From Aestuariivirga litoralis (GTDB taxonomy: Bacteria; Pseudomonadota; Alphaproteobacteria; Rhizobiales; Aestuariivirgaceae), in contig NZ_QKVK01000007.1 in assembly GCF_003234965.1 (NCBI RefSeq), positions 1-64,000 of the forward strand: a stretch of 64,000 bases of DNA, read 5' to 3'. This document shows, in pieces, positions 45,217 through 56,366 of this stretch. Each line of letters opens with the position of its first letter. Within the stretch, counting starts at the first letter, position 1. The notes beneath the pieces were generated by a model. The model did not search any database, had not been told where the DNA came from, and worked only from the letters and a program-made list of their open reading frames with translations. The translations under genes and the position numbers were made by a program.

Positions 45217-46151
45217 TGGCGAAACTCCTGCGCCAGCCCTGGGTCTTCTCCTTCGGTGCGGCCATCGCCGTGTGGCTTACCACCATCGCCTATACGGGTG
45301 GCCAGGGTGCCGGCGCCATTCTCACGGCGGCCCTGTCCTTCGCCACCTTCACCATCATCGTGGGGCTGGGCCAGATGATGGTGATTACCACCGGTCCCGG
45401 CAATGTGGACCTCTCGATCCCCGCCACCATCACGCTCGCGGGCGTCGTCGCCATGAAGGTGATGGACGAGGATACGGGGCGCATGGCCATCGGCATCGTG
45501 GCGGCATTGGGGGCGGCCACCCTCGTCGGCATCTTCAACTACGGCCTGATCCGCCTGCTGCGCATCCCGCCGATCATCGCCACGCTGTCGTCGAGCTTCC
45601 TCGTCCTCTCGACCGCCATTTCCTATGGCCGCGGCATCCGCATCAAGCCGCCGGAGCCGCTCGCCGAATTTGCGACCACGCGGCTCTTCGGCATTCCCAT
45701 CATGGCCTTCGCGGTGCTCGCCATTTCGGTCGGCATGGCCATCGTGCTGAGCCGCACCGTCTATGGCCGCAGCGTGCTGGCGGTGGGGCAGAACAGCCGC
45801 GCGGCCTGGCTGGCGGGGCTCAACGTCGGCCGCACCCGCTTCCTCACCTATGTGCTGAGCGCCTTCCTTGCCGGCATCTGCGGCATCCTTCTCTCCGGCT
45901 TCTCGCGCGGCGCGGCGCTCAACATGGGCGAGGAATTCCTGCTCGCCTCCATCGCCACCGTGGTGATCGGCGGCACGTCGGTCGCCGGCGGCCGGGCCAA
46001 CGTGCCGGGCATCTGGGGTGCCGCACTGTTCATGTATCTGCTCGTCACCATGCTCAACACCTTCGGTGCGAGCGCCGGCATCCGGCTCATCCTCACGGGG
46101 CTGATGATCATCGGCGTGATCGTCGCCGCCGGCGGCGAGGAGCAGCGTTAG
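45213..46151 (+). CDS. CUT2-type sugar ABC permease 2
   Basis: A 312-residue BPD_transp_2 permease. The family motif reads ITTGPGNVDLSIPATITLAGVVA, and the late loop is VIGGTSVAGGRANVPGIWGAA. It probably forms a heterodimer with permease 1. Its stop overlaps the stop of the convergent PLD-fold gene by four bases (46148-46151). No sugar isomerase, kinase or dehydrogenase follows, so catabolism is encoded elsewhere. Confidence 0.92.
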   Translation: MMAKLLRQPWVFSFGAAIAVWLTTIAYTGGQGAGAILTAALSFATFTIIVGLGQMMVITTGPGNVDLSIPATITLAGVVAMKVMDEDTGRMAIGIVAALGAATLVGIFNYGLIRLLRIPPIIATLSSSFLVLSTAISYGRGIRIKPPEPLAEFATTRLFGIPIMAFAVLAISVGMAIVLSRTVYGRSVLAVGQNSRAAWLAGLNVGRTRFLTYVLSAFLAGICGILLSGFSRGAALNMGEEFLLASIATVVIGGTSVAGGRANVPGIWGAALFMYLLVTMLNTFGASAGIRLILTGLMIIGVIVAAGGEEQR

Positions 46152-47221
46152 GGCATGACCGGGCAGTTGGTGGTGTAGGGCGTGCTGAGGGCGGCGAAGT
46201 CCTGGTCGAAGCGCGCCCTGTAGGTCTTCACCGGCATGGCCTCGGTCAGGAACAGGCCCACCTCACGGTTGAAGGTGGTCGAGTCGGGCGAGAAGCTGAT
46301 CGAGCCGATATAGAGGCGCGCGCCGTCCGCCAGCATGGTGCGGGCATGCATGTAGGGCTTCTGGAAGGTCTGCACGGGGCCGGTCACGCGCACGTTCACG
46401 CCCCACTGCTGCAGCTTCTTCAGGGACTCGTTCTGCAGCGTCTGGATTTCCTTCGTGGCACCGTTGACGCAGAGCGGCGAGATGAGCCGCACGCTGACGC
46501 CGCGGCCCACCGCCGCGATGAGCTCGCTCTCGAGTGCCGCATTGCCCAGCAACTCGCTCGTCACATCGAGCCTGCTGCGTGCGGACTGGATGAGCGTGGT
46601 GAGCCGGTTGGCGGCATTCACCGGCCCGATCGCCAGCCCGGGGCTGTTGAACTTTGGCGTGGGATTGAAGGGCGGCGCCTGCGTGTTGGCGGGGGCGGAG
46701 AAGGCCCAGTCATTCTCGAACAGGTTGGAGAGGTCCCTGATCAGCCCCCGGCTGGTACTGATCAGGAAATAGTCGCGGTATTGCAGAAACGTCGTCGTGT
46801 CGAGGCAGGCGGAACCCACCAGCACCTTCCGGTCGTCGATGAGGATGACCTTGGGAAAGCTGCGCGGGAAGATCGGGTTGCTGAGGTGCAGTTCGCCGCC
46901 CGACGCCACGATGTATTTCGCGAGGTTGGTGCGCTCCTCGGGAATGGCCTGGTATTTCCCGTTGTCGACGATCACCTGCACCCGAACTCCGCGCCCCAGC
47001 GCCTGCTGCAGCCCGGCAAGGATCTGCGGATCTTCGAGCACGCAGATCTCGACGCGGATGCGGGAACGCGCCTCGGCGAAGGCCTGCAGGAAATCGGTGC
47101 GTCCTGCCTCCGGCAGGATGCGCAGCGTGTCGGCCAGGGCGGCCGCCGTGAGGGATAGGAACAGCGCCACGGCCAGCAGCGCGGTGCGCCGGGCCTGCTT
47201 GAACAAGCGTCTGAAACTCAT
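46148..47221 (-). CDS. Exported phospholipase-D-fold protein with degenerate HKD motifs
   Basis: A 357-residue protein: signal peptide (MSFRRLFKQARRTALLAVALF to AlaLeuAla), then two PLD-like halves. The first catalytic motif, normally HxKxxxxD, reads FPKVILIDD, with the His missing. The second reads MHARTMLADG, with Lys replaced by Arg. The surroundings (VLVGSACLDTTTF; LYIGSISFSPDSTTFNREVGL) are normal for the fold. Hydrolase activity is doubtful; a binding or altered role is possible. ATG 47221 was chosen over GTG 47233 because the signal peptide fits. Confidence 0.8.
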   Translation of the reverse strand: MSFRRLFKQARRTALLAVALFLSLTAAALADTLRILPEAGRTDFLQAFAEARSRIRVEICVLEDPQILAGLQQALGRGVRVQVIVDNGKYQAIPEERTNLAKYIVASGGELHLSNPIFPRSFPKVILIDDRKVLVGSACLDTTTFLQYRDYFLISTSRGLIRDLSNLFENDWAFSAPANTQAPPFNPTPKFNSPGLAIGPVNAANRLTTLIQSARSRLDVTSELLGNAALESELIAAVGRGVSVRLISPLCVNGATKEIQTLQNESLKKLQQWGVNVRVTGPVQTFQKPYMHARTMLADGARLYIGSISFSPDSTTFNREVGLFLTEAMPVKTYRARFDQDFAALSTPYTTNCPVMP

Positions 47222-47319
47222 CGATGCCCCCACCCTGACCGCCCATGCCCCGGGCGGGCCTGCATATCGCAGCCTCTGGCTATCGAAAGTAACAGCAAAC
47301 CGGCCGGCGGGACAAGGCG

Positions 47320-50300
47320 CTAGAGCTTGCCGATGGCGTTGACGAAGAAGCCCTGGTCATTGGCGGTGAGGTCGGCCAGATCATCGGAATAGCGGCCGAA
47401 GTTATAGCCGACACCCACGTCGAAATTGTCGTTGATCTGGCGATAGAGGGCGGCCACCGCACCCCAGTTGGCGGATTCGCTGGCGCTCTCCCACAGGCAG
47501 CGCCCCTCGACCAGCACGTCCCACTTCTTGACCACATGCAGATCGGCCCGAAGCACCGCGAGCTGGGCGTTGGAACTCTCCCAGTCGCCGTCGTTCCCGT
47601 CCTCGTCCTGCGGCTTCCATTGCCCGAAGCGCAGGCCATATTTGCCGCCGATGGAGATCATCTGCGTCAGGTCATAGGTGGCATCGACGCTGAGGATGTG
47701 GCTCTGCTGCGACGGCCCGCCGATCTCGCCGTCGATATTCACCTGGTCGGGCCCCGGCGCATCATAGACATAGACATATTTGGCCAGCGCATTGAGCCTG
47801 TCGTTCAGCACCGGGCGATAGGCATAGCCGAGCGAGGCCTCGACGAAATTGCCGCCGATGGATGAGTCGGTCGCGTCCGACACCACGGCATCGAGTGCTG
47901 CCAGCACGCGCCAGTTCTCGTTCAGCGCATTGGACAGGCGCGCCGCAAGGTAATAGGCCGTCTGGTCGCCGCCATCCGCGCCGTTGTTGTCATCGAAGCG
48001 CACCTCGCCCTTGACCGAGGCCGTCATCCTGTCATTCGGGTTGTAGACGGCAGTGGCGGAGACGGCGTTGCGGTTGACGTTGCTGTCGGCGAAGCCCAGA
48101 TCCGCCGTGTCGCCCCATACCCGGCCGGACTCGATGGCGCCGCCCAGATTCCATTCCGGCGTGGGCGTGTAGGTGACGCCATAGACCTGGGTGAGGCTCG
48201 GCTGGTCCGACCAGAAATTATACTTGTCTTCGGCATAGACCGAGAGCCGCTCGCTGAAGCCATGGCTGACGCCGGCGATGATGCCGCCGAGATCGTCCGT
48301 CTGGTTTCCCGACAGCAGGTCATTGGCAACGTAATTGCCCGGCGCCAGCGCATAGCCGATGTAATAGCGGTCGGATGCCACGGGCTGGTAGCTCAGCAAC
48401 GCCCTGCCCCCGATGCCGCCATCGCCATAGGAGATTTCGGCGGAGCCATCGATGGTGTCGGTGAACTGCCGCGTGCCGCCCACGCCGCCGCGGTTGTTGA
48501 GGTCGACATTGCCGGTGCGGGCCAGCGTTGCCTGGCCGAAGGCATAGACGGACGAGGTGTCGCTCAGGATGCGGGTGAGCTTCAACGCCGTGTCGGTGCG
48601 GGTGCCGTCGGTGTTGTCGTCGGGGTTGTCGACGTCTAGCTGCTGTATGCCGGCGGACAGGAGCAGCCCCTCGCGCAGCAGATAGGTGAGGTCCGCCCCA
48701 GCCTGGTTCTGGGTCACGTCGCCGCCGCTTTCCAGCCGGTCGCCGTAGAAGTTCAGCGTCAGCCGCTCGGTGAGTTCCAGGTCGCCCTTGAGGCCATATT
48801 CGTAGCGGTCCTGTGTCACCTGCTCGTCGAGGGTGGAGAAGCCCGCCTGCTTGTAGGCGAAGCTCGCCTCGAGATCGCCCTTGGCGCCGGGGACGATCTC
48901 GCCGGGGTCGAGCCGGCCCAGCACGCGATAGGCCATGGCCGGGTCGCCCGCGCTGCCCGCAATGCCCGGCTCGGTGATGGTGAGACCACCGTTGAGTGAT
49001 TCCGAGAAGCCGAAGCCGGGGCCGTCGGTTACCGCCACTTCGCCTTCGAGGAAGGTCTTCTCCGACTTGTAGAACTGGATGTCGGCGCCGCCCAGCTTCT
49101 GGTCTGCTGCGCCCGTCTTCTCCAGTGCGCCGGTGACGCCGAGGCGCACATGGTCGCCCACCCATTGCTGGGCACGGCCGCCATAGACATAGCCGTCGAC
49201 GTCGCCCGCCGTCGGCACATATTCATAGGCCGCGACCAGATATTGCTGGTTGCCGCCGATGGCCCCGTCGCGCACCAGGTTGCCATCATCCGCACTGGAG
49301 GAGAGCGGTTCATCGAGCAACACGACGCCCTGCAGATAGTCGATCGAATAGTCGCGGCCATAGACCAGCGTCTTGCGGCTGACCACGCGGCCCGTCACCG
49401 GGTTGCGCACCTCGACATAGAGCGTCTCGGAGCCGGTGGTCACGTCCTGGTGGGTCAGGAAATAGGCCGAACCGCCGGTGCCGCGGAACACGTCGCGCTG
49501 CGGCAGGGTTCCGGGCTGGGCGGCATAGGCATGGACTTCGCCCGAGCGCTCGCCCGAGGGCACCATCCTGTCGGTCTTCAGCACGACATTGCCGCCATAA
49601 AGCGCCCGGTCATTCCGCAGGAACTCGGTGCCGCGGATGTCGGTCTTGAAGTTGCCCCACACCACGCGGCTGTCGCCGCGTTCGAGGCGGACATAGAACT
49701 TGCCGCTGGTCGGCGCATCCTCGATGGCCACCGAGTCATCGCCATAGACCGGATAATAGTCCTCAGGGTCGATGCGCTTCAGGAAGCTCCTCGGGTCGCG
49801 GTCGTCGAGGCCCGTCAGCATGTTCTCGATGCTGCCGTCGCCGGTGTCGGCAGCGGCGGTGAGGAGCCACGAGCCCTTGATCTTGCCCTTCAGGTAGAAG
49901 GCGGCCCGGCCCTTGTCGTAGACGCCGTCATATTCGCCCGGCGCCACGTCCTCGATGTGCTTCGAGCCGGTCCTGGAACCGAGCGTCAGATCTGCGAGGC
50001 CGACATAGAACCACTCGTTCGAGGGGATGTTGATGCTGCGGTCGAAGGTGAGGCTGCCCGCCTTCCCCGCCTTCAGCGCCACGTCCACGTCATGCTCGCC
50101 GATGGGCAGGATGCGCTGCACCACGAAGGCGCCCTCGCCATCGACGGGGATCGTCTCGCCCAGCACCTGCACCGCTGCCCCCGGTGGCACGTTGCGCCCC
50201 GCCACGGTGACCGCACCGCCATCGACACGGATATTGCGGAACGCCGTGTTGTCGTCGCTGAAGCCCGGTGCCGTGGGCCCTGCCTCCTCCGGCGCCGTTT

Positions 50301-50829
50301 CGAGCGCGGAGCGGCGCACCAGCGTCAGCGGCCGCGTTTCATCGAAGCGGCCCTTGGCATCATAGACGCGCAGCACATAGGCGAAGTCGTCGAAGCCCTG
50401 GGTCGCCGCGACCTCCGGCATGGTCCAGCGCGCCAGGTTGCCCTTGCCAACCTTGACCACCGCAACGGGTGCTGCCGGTGCATGGCGGCCGGTGGCGAAG
50501 ATGCGAATCTCCTGCCGCGTGACATAGGCCGGGTAGTTGCTGGAGGCGAGGAACTCCACCACCTCGCCCACCGCGAAGGACCGGCGCGAAGAGGTGGTGG
50601 CGGCGTTGAGGAAGGGCTTGGCGTTGAGCCCGTCATACTTCACCTGGATGTCGGCGCCTTCCAGCGCCATGTCGGCCTTGCGGTTCGGGTCCGGCGTGCC
50701 GGGCGTGCCCGCCACGTGCTGGCCATCGACGCTGATCGAGAACAAAGCCTCGCCCGCCTCATCCGCCTGGGCGAGCGCCGTGCCGCACAGCAGCATGGCG
50801 GTGACAAGCGCGAGGCGGCCCGGCCTCAT
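47320..50829 (-). CDS. Large outer-membrane beta-barrel protein coupled to the DUF11 gene
   Basis: A 1169-residue exported protein. Signal peptide (MRPGRLALVTAMLLCGTALAQA), then two periplasmic beta domains (to about residue 280). The rest consists of alternating amphipathic beta strands with Asp/Gly-rich turns, ending FVNAIGKL as an outer-membrane barrel would. Landmarks are the YYPVYGDDS segment near residue 360, FLRNDRALYGGNVV and VYGRDYSIDYLQGVVLLDEPL. No TonB box or plug domain is apparent. Its start overlaps the DUF11 protein stop by four bases (ATGA), so the two are translationally coupled. It likely anchors or exports that partner; this is inferred. Confidence 0.75.
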   Translation of the reverse strand: MRPGRLALVTAMLLCGTALAQADEAGEALFSISVDGQHVAGTPGTPDPNRKADMALEGADIQVKYDGLNAKPFLNAATTSSRRSFAVGEVVEFLASSNYPAYVTRQEIRIFATGRHAPAAPVAVVKVGKGNLARWTMPEVAATQGFDDFAYVLRVYDAKGRFDETRPLTLVRRSALETAPEEAGPTAPGFSDDNTAFRNIRVDGGAVTVAGRNVPPGAAVQVLGETIPVDGEGAFVVQRILPIGEHDVDVALKAGKAGSLTFDRSINIPSNEWFYVGLADLTLGSRTGSKHIEDVAPGEYDGVYDKGRAAFYLKGKIKGSWLLTAAADTGDGSIENMLTGLDDRDPRSFLKRIDPEDYYPVYGDDSVAIEDAPTSGKFYVRLERGDSRVVWGNFKTDIRGTEFLRNDRALYGGNVVLKTDRMVPSGERSGEVHAYAAQPGTLPQRDVFRGTGGSAYFLTHQDVTTGSETLYVEVRNPVTGRVVSRKTLVYGRDYSIDYLQGVVLLDEPLSSSADDGNLVRDGAIGGNQQYLVAAYEYVPTAGDVDGYVYGGRAQQWVGDHVRLGVTGALEKTGAADQKLGGADIQFYKSEKTFLEGEVAVTDGPGFGFSESLNGGLTITEPGIAGSAGDPAMAYRVLGRLDPGEIVPGAKGDLEASFAYKQAGFSTLDEQVTQDRYEYGLKGDLELTERLTLNFYGDRLESGGDVTQNQAGADLTYLLREGLLLSAGIQQLDVDNPDDNTDGTRTDTALKLTRILSDTSSVYAFGQATLARTGNVDLNNRGGVGGTRQFTDTIDGSAEISYGDGGIGGRALLSYQPVASDRYYIGYALAPGNYVANDLLSGNQTDDLGGIIAGVSHGFSERLSVYAEDKYNFWSDQPSLTQVYGVTYTPTPEWNLGGAIESGRVWGDTADLGFADSNVNRNAVSATAVYNPNDRMTASVKGEVRFDDNNGADGGDQTAYYLAARLSNALNENWRVLAALDAVVSDATDSSIGGNFVEASLGYAYRPVLNDRLNALAKYVYVYDAPGPDQVNIDGEIGGPSQQSHILSVDATYDLTQMISIGGKYGLRFGQWKPQDEDGNDGDWESSNAQLAVLRADLHVVKKWDVLVEGRCLWESASESANWGAVAALYRQINDNFDVGVGYNFGRYSDDLADLTANDQGFFVNAIGKL

Positions 50830-53800
50830 GGCACACCCCCGTCCAGCATGCGGGTGTCGATGGCAAGGTCGTAGCGATGCGAAGCGGACTGCCAGCGCCG
50901 CGAGATCTCATCCTTCACGGCGCGCAGCCGCGCCTTGCCCAGGGCGCCGTCGCTGCCGCGATAGGTGATCTCGAGAACGGAGGTCTCCGCCTCGAGCGCG
51001 GCGACCAGCTTGTCGAGTCCGCCCTCCCACTTGGGGAGCAGCTCCGTGGAGCCCGGCGCGAAGACCTTCCCGTTGAGCTCCAGCTTCACCAGCCGCGAGA
51101 TCGAGGCGCCGAAATTGAGCTTCACCACCTTGCCGCGGGTGAGGCGCACGCGGCGCGGGTTCTCGGTGGTCACGTGATAGCCCGTGGGCAGCGTGCGCGT
51201 GTCGAGCTTCAGGATGAAGTTGGAGCCGATGGCGGCATCCGGGATGTCGGCGCAGGGAATGTTGAAGCGGCCATTGGAATCGGTGGTCACCAGCAGGCCG
51301 TTGACGGTGGCCACCCGCACCGCCGGAAGACCCGGCTCGCCCTCGTCCTGGTAGCCGTTGCGGTTCTGGTCATCAAACACCTTGCCGATGATGTCGCCGC
51401 AGTCGAACACCGCCTCGGCGAGAATGGTCACGCGGGCCTTGGCGGTTGCCACCACCTCGCCCGTATCGGGGTCCACCAGCTGGGCCTGGTTGACCGCCAC
51501 GCCGGGATTGACCGAGGCCGACACCACCAGCGTCAGTTCCAGCTTGATGTCGCCCCCGGCATCGGGCACCAGCCCGTCGAAGGTCAGGCGGCGGCCGTCG
51601 ATGGCGGGTGCGACCTTCTTGCCATTGGCCACCGCGCTGCCCTCGATGAAGGCGAAGCCGGGCGGCATCACGTCGACGATGCGCGCCGGGTTGAAGGGCA
51701 CGTCCTGCGCCACGATGACGTAGGGCACCTTCTCGCCGCGCTTGGCGGTGCTGATCAGCGCCCGCTTGGTCAAGGTGTTGCCGTCGATCACGGCGACCAC
51801 CGGCGTGGTGACGGTGTCGGTGACTGGCCCGGTCACCGGATTGGTTTCGGTGCTGTCGGCCGTGGCGGTGTTCACCACCTTGCCTGCCTGCACGTCCTCG
51901 ATGGTCACCGTGTAGCTGCCGGTCAGCACGCAGGTCTGGTCCGGCTGCAGCACCGCGCAGGTGGTGCTGTCCGGGGTGATCATGTCGTCGCTCACCACCA
52001 CGTCGCTGAGTGGCACGCTGCCGCTGTTGGTGGCGGTGATGCGGAAGGTCAGGCTGTCGCCGAGCGTGATGCTGCCGCTCTTGTCGGCATCGGTGTAGCC
52101 GGTCATCACCTTGGTGATGGTCAGTTGCGGCAGATTGGGCGACAGCGGCACCAGATTGGACTCGCCGTTGACCGCCGTGCCCGACTGTTCGCCGAGGCCG
52201 CTGACGCTGGCCTGGTTGAAATAGCGCCCGCCATTGGCAAGCGGCGGCAGCGGCACCGTGGGCATCACGCGGATGGCGAAGTCCACCGTGCAGCTGGCGC
52301 CGACGGCGAGGCTGGCCCCCTGTGCCGCCACTGCGTCCGTGCTGCCGTTGAAGCCGGTGTTCAGCCCGCCGCAGCTGCCGCTTGGCGCCGCGATGACGGT
52401 GTAGGTGCCGGGCGCCGTGGCCGTGGCGGCGAAGCTGCCGAACAGCGGCGCGGCACCGGCCAGCTGATCGCTGACCGTGATGGTCTGCAGGGGCTCGAGG
52501 CTGGGGTTGCTGACAGTGAGCCGGAAGCTTGCATCGAAGCTGCCATCGGCATTGGGCGTGGGGCCGGAGAGCAGCGCCTTGGTGATGGCGATGCCGGAAT
52601 TGGGCACCAGGGTGAAATCATATCCGGTCGCCGCCTGGGTCACGAGCGTAATGCCGCCGATCACCGTGGCGCTGAGGGCGCTGCCCCCGGCGGTGCCGGG
52701 CTTCGCCATGCCGTTGGCAAGGGCCGCATCGCCCACCGGCCCGCGGGTGAGCGTATAGCTGCCGGGCGGCACGGCAGCGAAGACATAGCGCCCGTCGGAC
52801 CCCGTGGTGACGGTGAGGCTGACCGGCACGCCGCCCGGCCCGGCCCCGCTGACCTGCATCGGAACCCCGCTGATGCCGGTGTCGCCCGGATCCTGGACGC
52901 CATTGTTGTTGAAGTCGCGGAACACCAGGCCCGCCAGCGAGGCGGCCTCCACCGTCACCTGTCCGGAATTCGAATTGTTGGCGAGGTTCTCCTCGAGCGA
53001 GGTGGTGGCGACGCTGGCGGTGTTGGTGAAGGTCTGCGGGCTCGATGCGGACTCGACCACCTGCACCGGCGCGGTGACGGTGACTTCGGCGCCTGAACTC
53101 ATAGTGCCGAACTCGCAGGTGAAGGACGAGCCGCCCGCGCTGCCGCTGCACACATTGGCGGTGGTGGTGCCCGCCACCACCACGGCAGACGGCGAGCCGG
53201 TGAGCTTCATGCCCGGCGGCAGCGCGTCGGACAGCACGGTGGCATCGGCCTCGTTGAGGCCGGGGCCGATGTTGTTGCGCACGATGATCGCGAAGCTGAA
53301 GGGCTGGAGCAGCGTCACGCTGGGCTGCGAGGGAACCTTGCTCACCACCTCCACGTCGGCGCGGCTGCGCACCGTGGTGAGTTCAACATCGGTGTTGTTG
53401 TCAGGGTTTGTGTCATGGCTCGCGGTTTCGAGCGACGTGACGGTGGCGCTGTTCTCCGCCACGCCGCGCGCCTGGCCTGACATGGTGAGCCTGATGGTGG
53501 CGGTGTCGCCGGACAGCATCAGCCGCTTGGTGCAGGTGACGGTGCCCCCCACCGTGCCGGGCGCAGGTCCGCCGCAGGTGACGCCGGCGGGTGCACTCAC
53601 CGACTGGAAGGCGAGGAAGGCGCTGGGCAGCGTGTCGGTGACCTCCACCTCCTCCGCCGCGGACGGCCCGTTGTTGGTGATGGTGAGGCCGTAGACCATG
53701 GTGGAGCCGATCCCCACCGGGTCGGGCCCATAGTCCGGCAGCGGCGTGTCGACCTTGTTGATCTGCAGGTCGAGGACCGGCGGCAGAATGCCGGCGGAAA

Positions 53801-56366
53801 CGGAGGCGGAATTGTTTCCGCCATTGTCCCCCGGCGTCGTGGGCGAGGTGACCGTTGCCGTATTGGTGACGGTCGAGCCCGACAGCGCGCTCTGCGCCGC
53901 CACGGTCACCGTCACCGTCTGCTGCGCGCCATTGGCGATGGTGCCGAGATTGCACTCGATCAGGCCGTGGGTGGTGTCACTTCCCACCGGCGTGGCATCG
54001 GCGACGATGATCCGGCCTGCCGTGGGCAGGCTGGGGCAAGTGCCGGATGACGGGGTGGCGCCGAGGAAGATCAGCCCCGGCGGCAAGGTGTCGGTGACGG
54101 TGACGTTCTGCGCGGCGCTGCGGCCATCGGCCGTGGTGGTGGCGGCGAGGACATAGGTGAAGGCCTGCCCGGCCCGCGGGTTCGCCGGATTGACCGTCTT
54201 GCCGATGGTGACATCGGCCAGCGCCGTGACGTCGAAGGTGTCGGTGCCGGTATTGTTGCCGGTGTCCGGATCGAAGGTGACGCTCGATATGGCGCGCGCG
54301 CTGTTGCTGCGCTGGCCGGCATTGCCGCCGGGGCGCACCACCACATTGACTTGCGGGCAGTTCACGCCCTCGGTGCAGACGGGCAGCGTGGCGATGGTGC
54401 AGGTGAGCCGCACGGCCGTGCCCGTGGCGCCGCCCAGCGCCGCGGTCGCGCAGTTCATGCCCGAGGCGGAATTGGGCGCCCACACCACCTGCACGAGGCC
54501 TTTGTCCGAACCGCTGCGATTGTTGATCAGGCCCGTCAGGTCGTCGGTGAGGGTGATGCTAGATGAGGTGCCGCTTCCATCATTGACGATGTCGATCAGG
54601 AACTGCTCGGTGTCGCCCGACGCGATCGTCTTGTTGAGCGCCTGCTTGTTGACCCTGATGTCTGCCTGGTTGCCGCTGCCCGTCGAGTTCACGCCATAGG
54701 TGATGGTGTTGTTCTTGAGGTTGGGGTCGGGGAAGCTGGGGTTGACCGTCGTCACCGTCATGGAATTGGTGAAGCTGGTGGCGCCCGAGACGGTGGAGAC
54801 GGTGCGCAGCACCACCGCCGGCGTGGTGGCGCCCACCGGCAGCGGCGTGACGTAGTCACGCGTGCAGGTGATCGGAGCGGGTCCGGTGACCGGCACGGCG
54901 GGCGAACAGCTCCAGCCGTTGAGCGCGGAATAGGAGTCCACCCGCAACCCGGCGGGCAGATTGTCGGTCATCACGATGGTGCCGCTGAAGGGCCGGTTGC
55001 CGAGGTTCGAGGTGCTGATCGAAAAGTTGAAGGGCGTGCCCTCGAGCACGGTGGGCGGATTGGCGGGGCCGGACTTGTTGGCGCGGAGGTCGGAGGTCTC
55101 CTCGTTGATCGCGGCGCCGCCATCGCTGGCTTCGTTGTTGCCGGGGTTCGGGTCGAGCGGGCTCGCCGCGTCGATCCGTGCCGTGTTGGTGGCGCTGCCG
55201 GCGCTGACCACCGTCGTTTCGATGGTGATCACCCCGAGCGGCACGTTGTGGCCCGGTGCCCCGCCGCTGGCCAGCGTGCAGGTGACGGTCTGCGAGGCGA
55301 TGCCGCAGGTCCAGCCGCTGCCTGCCGCCGGGATGACCTCGTTGATCTGATAATTGCCCGGAATGTCGTCGACGATGGTGAGGTCCAGCGGCGTCTCGCC
55401 GGTGAAGCTCGGCGTCAGCGTGAAGGTCACGTCATTGCCGACGAGCAGCGTTCCCGCCGGCGCGCGGCTCTTGGTGATCTTCACGTCCGAGCCCACGGTG
55501 ACGTCGGTCGTCACCGTGTCGCGGTTGTTGCCGGTGGTCCGGTCCGGCGGGTTGCTGCTGGTGATTTCGCCTGTCACCGTGATGGCGGAGGTGGAGGCAA
55601 CCGCGATATCCCCCTTCAGCTGCAGGCTGGCGCTTGCCCCCACGGCGATGGGCCCGGGAATGGTGCAGAGGTAATTGCTGCCCGACAGCACGCAGCCCGC
55701 TGGCCACACGAGGCCCCCGAGCCCGGCGGGAACAGGCACCGAGACCACCACGCTGGAGGCGGGCATCGGCCCGAGGTTGCTGACGGTGAAGTCGTAGGTG
55801 ACGGCGCTGCCCGCCGCCGAACTCGCGGGGCCGGCGATGTCCAGCGTCAGGTCGGTGCCGTCGATGACGGTGGTGGGCTGCTCGGCGATGTTGTTGGCGG
55901 TCTCGCTGTCGATACCGAGGGCCGGCACCTTGGCAACGACGGCAAAGGTGCCCTGGATGCTGGTCTTGACCAGCGCCTTGAGGGTGACGACGTCCCCCCC
56001 GGCAAGCGGCGGCAGGGTGCAGCTGACCGTGGCGAGGCCCACCGCCGGCTGCGGCGTGCAGCCGGTGATGGGGCTGCCCGCCTCAGTGCCGGTGAAGGTG
56101 AAGCTGCCCGGAATGGTCAGGTCGAGCGTGTTCTCAGGAGAGGTATTGGACGCGAGGTCGTCGTTCTCGACGGTGATGGTGTAGGTGATGGTGCCGCCGA
56201 GGGGGATCGGGTCCTCGTTGTCGATGATGTTGACCACCCAGTTGGTGGCCTGCGCCTCGGCGGCCAGCACCACCTGCGCCAGCAGCAACAGCAGCAGCAG
56301 CGCAAGGCGGCGCAACACTGGCCACGCGCTGCGTGCCGCTTCCCTCCTGCCGCCGAACCCCAGCAT
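50826..56366 (-). CDS. Giant multi-DUF11 secreted protein with OmpA-like end
   Basis: A 1846-residue protein with a Sec signal (RRLALLLLLLLAQVVLAAEAQA). I count about eleven DUF11-like Ig/adhesin modules, many starting with a DV/DL-x-I-x-K strand (SDVKITKSRAPAG, SDLRANKSG, ADIRVNKQ, ADVTIGKTV, LDLQINKVD). Two SdrD-B-like modules (GLVFRDFNNNGVQDPGDTG and IIGKVFDDQNRNGYQDEGE) lie near residues 1140 and 1675. The last 90 residues resemble a weak OmpA C-terminal domain (VFAPGSTELLPKWEGGLDKL). Cys pairs recur within modules. Start ATG 56366 follows AGGAGG at about four bases; a longer TTG start at 56420 is less likely. It is probably a surface adhesin or scaffold. Confidence 0.85.
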   Translation of the reverse strand: MLGFGGRREAARSAWPVLRRLALLLLLLLAQVVLAAEAQATNWVVNIIDNEDPIPLGGTITYTITVENDDLASNTSPENTLDLTIPGSFTFTGTEAGSPITGCTPQPAVGLATVSCTLPPLAGGDVVTLKALVKTSIQGTFAVVAKVPALGIDSETANNIAEQPTTVIDGTDLTLDIAGPASSAAGSAVTYDFTVSNLGPMPASSVVVSVPVPAGLGGLVWPAGCVLSGSNYLCTIPGPIAVGASASLQLKGDIAVASTSAITVTGEITSSNPPDRTTGNNRDTVTTDVTVGSDVKITKSRAPAGTLLVGNDVTFTLTPSFTGETPLDLTIVDDIPGNYQINEVIPAAGSGWTCGIASQTVTCTLASGGAPGHNVPLGVITIETTVVSAGSATNTARIDAASPLDPNPGNNEASDGGAAINEETSDLRANKSGPANPPTVLEGTPFNFSISTSNLGNRPFSGTIVMTDNLPAGLRVDSYSALNGWSCSPAVPVTGPAPITCTRDYVTPLPVGATTPAVVLRTVSTVSGATSFTNSMTVTTVNPSFPDPNLKNNTITYGVNSTGSGNQADIRVNKQALNKTIASGDTEQFLIDIVNDGSGTSSSITLTDDLTGLINNRSGSDKGLVQVVWAPNSASGMNCATAALGGATGTAVRLTCTIATLPVCTEGVNCPQVNVVVRPGGNAGQRSNSARAISSVTFDPDTGNNTGTDTFDVTALADVTIGKTVNPANPRAGQAFTYVLAATTTADGRSAAQNVTVTDTLPPGLIFLGATPSSGTCPSLPTAGRIIVADATPVGSDTTHGLIECNLGTIANGAQQTVTVTVAAQSALSGSTVTNTATVTSPTTPGDNGGNNSASVSAGILPPVLDLQINKVDTPLPDYGPDPVGIGSTMVYGLTITNNGPSAAEEVEVTDTLPSAFLAFQSVSAPAGVTCGGPAPGTVGGTVTCTKRLMLSGDTATIRLTMSGQARGVAENSATVTSLETASHDTNPDNNTDVELTTVRSRADVEVVSKVPSQPSVTLLQPFSFAIIVRNNIGPGLNEADATVLSDALPPGMKLTGSPSAVVVAGTTTANVCSGSAGGSSFTCEFGTMSSGAEVTVTAPVQVVESASSPQTFTNTASVATTSLEENLANNSNSGQVTVEAASLAGLVFRDFNNNGVQDPGDTGISGVPMQVSGAGPGGVPVSLTVTTGSDGRYVFAAVPPGSYTLTRGPVGDAALANGMAKPGTAGGSALSATVIGGITLVTQAATGYDFTLVPNSGIAITKALLSGPTPNADGSFDASFRLTVSNPSLEPLQTITVSDQLAGAAPLFGSFAATATAPGTYTVIAAPSGSCGGLNTGFNGSTDAVAAQGASLAVGASCTVDFAIRVMPTVPLPPLANGGRYFNQASVSGLGEQSGTAVNGESNLVPLSPNLPQLTITKVMTGYTDADKSGSITLGDSLTFRITATNSGSVPLSDVVVSDDMITPDSTTCAVLQPDQTCVLTGSYTVTIEDVQAGKVVNTATADSTETNPVTGPVTDTVTTPVVAVIDGNTLTKRALISTAKRGEKVPYVIVAQDVPFNPARIVDVMPPGFAFIEGSAVANGKKVAPAIDGRRLTFDGLVPDAGGDIKLELTLVVSASVNPGVAVNQAQLVDPDTGEVVATAKARVTILAEAVFDCGDIIGKVFDDQNRNGYQDEGEPGLPAVRVATVNGLLVTTDSNGRFNIPCADIPDAAIGSNFILKLDTRTLPTGYHVTTENPRRVRLTRGKVVKLNFGASISRLVKLELNGKVFAPGSTELLPKWEGGLDKLVAALEAETSVLEITYRGSDGALGKARLRAVKDEISRRWQSASHRYDLAIDTRMLDGGVP

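Follow-up and report, generated by a model that had tools for sequence, protein, structure and literature searches.

A DUF11 stalk protein and a predicted outer-membrane barrel encoded by overlapping genes: a candidate surface-fibre system of Gram-negative bacteria

The gene pair and its surroundings

Two genes on the reverse strand of the window, the whole 64,000-nucleotide stretch of Aestuariivirga litoralis DNA that was analysed (genome size 4.23 Mb), share four bases, ATGA, as stop and start codons (Table 1). The upstream gene codes for a stalk protein with an array of DUF11 domains, and the downstream gene for a partner protein that is predicted to be an outer-membrane β barrel. The frames of 1846 and 1169 residues and the ATGA at positions 50826-50829 are as an earlier sequence-only reading had given them. 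A GGAGG motif precedes the ATG of the stalk gene at position 56366, the barrel protein has an apparent Sec signal peptide (by eye) that starts from the overlapping ATG, and a -4 overlap is likewise found in the relatives L010, L012 and L013. Thus, the pair does not look like one broken frame. A frame error behind the overlap was rejected, as the barrel protein has its own apparent signal peptide and the genes of close relatives overlap alike. The genome contains one match to the barrel protein and one full match to P1C, the C-terminal module of the stalk protein.

A phospholipase-D-like protein with an apparent signal peptide (PLDc_2, 116.7 bits) is encoded 86 bases behind the barrel gene (46148-47233, reverse strand). 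It was rejected as a third member, having no match among the other frames searched (E 1e-5). A 574-aa open frame antisense to the pair (49150-50874, forward strand) is a likely by-product of the high G+C content. A defence system was rejected (no PADLOC match for the stalk or the barrel protein), as was a phage origin (barrel unmatched in 50,697 phage records).

Table 1. Features of the stalk and barrel genes (positions in the window)
Feature	Position	Strand	Remarks
Stalk gene	50826..56366	-	1846 aa; signal peptide (by eye), CLIPPER/DUF11 array, DUF7507, two SdrD_B stretches, C-terminal P1C
Eight DUF11 repeats	52959..56216	-	family search
First SdrD_B domain	52746..52940	-	residues 1143-1207
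DUF7507 (CLIPPER_2) domain	51840..52130	-	residues 1413-1509
P1C module	50829..51782	-	residues 1529-1846
P1C part 1, CLIPPER-like domain	51417..51782	-	residues 1529-1650; conserved Lys1534, Asp1565, Asn1626
P1C part 2, SdrD_B-like segment	51111..51404	-	residues 1655-1752; Cys1656, Cys1705 invariant in 22 rows
P1C part 3, tail	50829..51110	-	predicted strand-helix-strand-helix-strand; OmpA-like by topology only
ATGA stop/start overlap	50826..50829	-	
Partner barrel gene	47320..50829	-	1169 aa
N-terminal β-rich domains (read as Ig-like)	50026..50742	-	barrel protein residues 30-268; model
Barrel region	47323..50016	-	residues 272-1169; moderate-confidence model with 34 long strands from residue 527 on
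Segment recognisable in most distant relatives	48970..50022	-	barrel protein, about residues 270-620

The stalk protein

The stalk protein exceeds the Pfam cut-offs for DUF11 (332.8 bits, cut-off 24.6), DUF7507 (86.1 bits, cut-off 27) and SdrD_B (64.4 bits in two stretches). The Asp and Asn of the isopeptide triad are aligned in nine of its 11 Ig-like domains. As the aligner misplaced the first strand of P1C, the Lys was judged by eye; it is present in the same nine domains, in one of them shifted by a residue. The 24 cysteines of the protein form 12 local pairs (by eye). None of the Pfam families found in the stalk is an adhesive head domain. The stalk would thus be a long row of Ig-like domains, the majority of which possess the Lys and Asn needed for an isopeptide bond and the helper Asp. 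We infer such bonds from the residues, and with them in most domains the stalk is probably rigid and resistant to proteases.

According to PMC12617251, DUF11 is now recognized as an isopeptide domain, CLIPPER, which is present in Gram-negative bacteria too. This does not support the earlier view that DUF11 arrays are usually described in Gram-positive bacteria and archaea. The fibrillar adhesins with CLIPPER domains, for example B9T28_05395 of Acinetobacter silvestris (PMC12617251), have in common with the window stalk the tandem DUF11/DUF7507 array and the Lys, Asp and Asn residues. The words barrel, outer membrane and secretion are absent from the main text of that paper, which therefore does not appear to describe a partner barrel. 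In the available text of two other papers, DUF11 is named once in passing (PMC12282271, on the cargo of T11SS) and listed in a table (PMC8877628). The stalk itself is of a known kind; the new part is the unit formed by the barrel and P1C.

The P1C module

All 45 invariant columns of a 16-row stalk alignment (residues 1534-1836) fall in P1C. In fused frames, in which stalk and barrel form one chain, the P1C match mostly spans the first two of its three parts.

The sequence-only reading had assigned a weak OmpA-like end to the stalk, with which only the predicted topology agrees. The AlphaFold2 model of the tail has the strand-helix-strand-helix-strand order, which is no more than suggestive of an OmpA-like fold; the VIA-align matches listed for the model lie mainly within its residues 10-356. 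The window tail has no OmpA (PF00691) match in the Pfam scan, and among eight isolated tails that were scanned OmpA appeared in one, below the cut-off (14 versus 27.2 bits). An hhalign profile comparison with the true OmpA domains of relatives gave a probability of 1.1, and a search of the PDB by hmmsearch, for which 15 tails were used, did not support OmpA either.

The partner barrel protein

The barrel protein matches no Pfam family above cut-off. Its AlphaFold2 model, of moderate confidence (23 rows; pLDDT 70.6, pTM 0.62), consists of Ig-like domains and about 34-37 long strands; besides the 34 counted from residue 527 on, the barrel region has three at residues 272-328 and an inserted region at 330-505. 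The 50 Foldseek matches listed for this model are mainly outer-membrane barrels, ApoB100 being the exception. The model superposes poorly on whole known barrels (TM of at most 0.22 by query length among the matches listed). The type 9 translocon entries 6h3j and 8gl6 are among these matches with a TM of 0.15-0.18 by query length, values at which kinship is not claimed.

All 51 frames that match through to the end of the barrel (fragments and two fused frames included) terminate in a hydrophobic residue, F, Y, W, L or I. Against this, there are 28 further frames longer than 1100 aa with a match that does not extend to the end of the barrel, and none of them terminates in F, Y or W. With moderate model confidence, the protein is predicted to be a large outer-membrane β barrel.

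Pfam searches of the window barrel and of 23 aligned barrels detected neither TonB plug or TonB-dependent barrel families nor PF03797, nor the TpsB POTRA and haemolysin-activator barrel families, nor the usher and Slam families (which we take to be PF00577 and PF04575, respectively). The nearest approach to an autotransporter is a weak YadA_anchor match in two of the 23 barrels (best E 0.0094). The earlier description of the second protein as a barrel with no TonB plug is thus supported, at the level of prediction, and so is the view that the pair is not a two-partner, autotransporter or RTX system, as none of these families (PF03797 for the autotransporters) was found in the window proteins. 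A weak NCBIfam match of the barrel protein to the gliding protein CglE reaches 16.2 bits against a cut-off of 70.

Some relatives carry a true OmpA domain (PF00691). The partners L146, L076 and L187 have it in their N-terminal part, and the fused frame L164 has the order stalk, SdrD_B, OmpA, barrel. The fused L190, one of five proteins inspected, is devoid of OmpA, and the domain is present in just one of the 23 aligned barrels.

Conservation of the pair

Within the order, 19 of 297 genomes matched the barrel protein, and within the class 10 of 289, counting the window genome. In a profile search of the phylum (349 genomes), 49 had the barrel, 62 had P1C and 46 had both (tallied by reading). 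Of the three genomes with the barrel only, two are incomplete (80% and 56%) and one has a fragment of 91 aa. The matches in the 16 genomes with P1C only are weak or partial, the strongest (1.4e-31) being in a genome that is 70% complete. Where the P1C match is below E 1e-44, as it is in 13 genomes, a barrel match is always present too, in one case as a fragment at a contig end.

The arrangement of the genes was examined at 85 loci. Of these, 81 were fetched by their barrel match (>60 bits) and then read for P1C (>45 bits), and 73 of the 81 have fully visible surroundings. All barrel matches of the order and class searches were included, as were eight of 25 matching plasmid records. Thirteen places from the phylum profile search were left out; these probably hold fused genes, as P1C and barrel are on the same contig and strand in open frames of equal length. 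At the 73 visible loci, P1C directly precedes the barrel in 45, shares an open frame with it in 23 and directly follows it in one. Among the 45 split pairs, the genes share four bases in 26, and in another three an in-frame start codon occupies the same site. The dedicated barrel that the sequence-only reading had supposed is supported, as is the conserved co-occurrence that it had proposed as a check.

P1C was not seen upstream or in frame at 13 of the 81 barrel loci. Eight of these are cut by contig ends (L011, L071, L084, L163, L178, L179, L182 and L185), and at L152/L153 P1C lies 45 bases downstream of the barrel. L070 is a truncated barrel locus with a 594-aa DUF11-matching gene, lacking P1C, upstream. 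At L069 (9041-13255) the barrel is in two pieces just after a transposase-like frame, in a genome with no P1C match, and is apparently a decaying copy. Intact lone barrels are seen at L075 and L077, two of the 73 visible loci. Their genomes, G412 and G516, each encode two unlinked P1C proteins that do not adjoin a barrel match; G516 contains a fused frame as well (L080), and the further barrel match of G412 is a fragment at the end of a contig (L084). Barrels are thus not regularly found without a DUF11 neighbour, so that the sequence-only reading is not refuted by the finding that it had named for this purpose, and the two exceptions are in genomes with unlinked P1C.

The adjacency is kept at a barrel identity of about 25-30% (L188, L189 and L193), and the same gene order and overlap occur in two Cyanobacteria, Kovacikia minuta (L189) and Synechococcus NIES-970 (L193). 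The distances of 31 pairs are correlated with r = 0.87, the best of 2000 shuffles (relatedness not removed) reaching 0.257, and nearest neighbours agree in 20 of the 31. Paralogous pairs within one genome diverge in step (49/49% and 61/61%). The association of stalk and barrel is well supported by genetics.

Fixed stoichiometry, which had been read from the overlap, is not supported in view of L058 (5648-13424, reverse strand), where a single barrel gene is preceded by P1C genes of 704 and 657 aa in tandem, with four shared bases at each junction, and of the unlinked P1C proteins of G412 and G516. Stalks reach 4354 aa in length.

Several loci have features of their own. The two cyanobacterial loci (L189:9464-17779 and L193:5341-16875) comprise a short P1C-like gene (about 540 aa), the barrel gene and a further DUF11 gene downstream. 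L188 is in a Vibrio campbellii record labelled plasmid, which at 2.06 Mb is probably a second chromosome. On an Acinetobacter haemolyticus plasmid (L190:4093-16458), the fused stalk-barrel gene is accompanied by several DUF11 genes and a gene of the OmpA family, which may together form a larger surface-fibre cluster. The barrel is in two consecutive frames behind the P1C gene at L078, L079 and L158; the first two belong to one genus and have different break points, which may reflect a real split, decay or sequence error.

A model of the stalk-barrel system

By combining these observations, it is possible to propose a two-gene surface-fibre system, in which a rigid stalk is held, and probably exported, by its own barrel by means of P1C; we give this reading a probability of roughly 60%. 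As both halves form one chain in many relatives, the window pair is the split form. P1C, with its CLIPPER-like domain, its SdrD_B-like segment with a Cys pair and its α/β tail, would be the docking end of the stalk and would join the N-terminal domains of the barrel protein on the periplasmic side. OmpA domains bind peptidoglycan, and as an OmpA domain is found at the junction of stalk and barrel in a few relatives (L164, L146, L076 and L187), this junction should be periplasmic. The stalk would then point out through or past the barrel; its anchor would be in the outer membrane and its N terminus outside. The correlated divergence of the 31 pairs agrees with docking, shared ancestry remaining in the shuffles. 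P1C looks like a docking tag, with one barrel serving several stalks, as suggested by the tandem genes of L058 and the unlinked P1C proteins of G412 and G516.

The barrel would probably also let the stalk out. Export is suggested by the size of the barrel, by an usher-like match and by the lack of any exporter in the scan of seven further proteins of the window. A more far-reaching and tentative possibility, which we consider rather doubtful, is that of an unrecognised export system, in which a barrel of 34-38 strands passes folded, isopeptide-locked Ig-like domains and P1C is the stop signal that stays inside. To our knowledge, a barrel of this many strands would be among the widest. If true, it would occur as split pairs, as fused chains and as lone barrels whose genomes carry unlinked P1C proteins, and its range would extend from Alphaproteobacteria to Gammaproteobacteria and Cyanobacteria.

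Alternative explanations

The stalk might reach the surface by another route, with the barrel merely holding P1C. What fusion and co-occurrence demonstrate is association rather than transport, the lone barrels in genomes with unlinked P1C proteins would suit a general receptor, and in Eleftheria terrae type II secretion genes, including a secretin, lie downstream of the pair. We nevertheless regard a pure anchor as unlikely: none of the seven other window proteins scanned against Pfam is an exporter, the phospholipase-D-like protein downstream lacks a match in the other frames searched, and so large a barrel exceeds the apparent needs of an anchor. It is less probable still that the stalk stays in the periplasm and links the barrel to the cell wall. 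The OmpA domains of several relatives and the topology of the tail would suit such a linker; stalks of up to 4354 aa fit a periplasm poorly, and CLIPPER domains have been described in surface adhesins (PMC12617251).

That the barrel is a nutrient receptor, importing what the DUF11 protein captures, appears very unlikely, although NCBI names it 'TonB-dependent receptor' in seven of the 25 plasmid records (other names include hypothetical protein and OmpA family protein), and in Phyllobacterium (L186:9740-17318) the barrel gene is directly followed by genes for a siderophore-interacting protein, ExbB, ExbD and a TonB-family protein. The Pfam scan of the 23 barrels showed neither a TonB plug nor a TonB-dependent barrel family, and no ExbB, ExbD or siderophore gene is present in three other annotated neighbourhoods (98-99% barrel coverage); in one of these, the type II secretion genes include one for a 'secretin and TonB N-terminal domain' protein. 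Neither siderophore/TonB-system nor type II secretion genes were seen in the two remaining annotated neighbourhoods, which have near-complete barrel matches. The neighbours in Phyllobacterium and Eleftheria could indicate another role or export route. Finally, overlapping genes are common in bacteria, and the two might be mere neighbours with no joint function; the 23 fused frames, the one reversed order and the adjacency kept at about 25-30% barrel identity make this scarcely credible.

Comparison with known systems

In its logic, the closest working analogue of the proposed system would be TraA/TraB of myxobacteria. As described in the available text of PMC6372800, these Myxococcus xanthus proteins are a surface adhesin and a partner that combines an OmpA domain with a barrel in the outer membrane, encoded by overlapping genes in one operon. 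The window pair likewise consists of overlapping genes for a stalk and a barrel partner. In contrast to it, TraA has a MYXO-CTERM and a PA14-like head, and the barrel of TraB is N-terminal (PMC6372800). Neither window protein matched the TraB (NF033763) or MYXO-CTERM models of NCBIfam at E up to 0.1. The TraB model matched one of the 23 barrels at 1e-13; this is most likely L076, through its OmpA domain.

The fused relatives resemble T5a autotransporters in having an N-terminal passenger and a C-terminal barrel in one chain. The T5a barrel has 12 strands; the window barrel has far more predicted strands, and neither it nor the 23 barrels scanned matched PF03797. As for the chaperone-usher (usher FimD) and T11SS/Slam systems, the usher family and the Slam barrel family are unmatched by sequence in the window and the 23 barrels. 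A description of the stalk-barrel pair was not found in the available text of the open-licence PMC literature searched, a body that mostly excludes subscription papers and preprints.

Implications

The finding holds, and it is broader than the sequence-only reading had supposed. DUF11 stalks are widespread in Gram-negative bacteria, and the paper that defined CLIPPER names anchor domains, its main text being silent on secretion and the outer membrane (PMC12617251). The pairing and fusion of stalk and barrel in many Gram-negative bacteria point to an undescribed way to hold, and perhaps export, surface fibres. This would correct database names such as 'TonB-dependent receptor'. For part of the DUF11 stalks, the partner barrel, the natural fusions and the docking module provide a concrete and testable answer.
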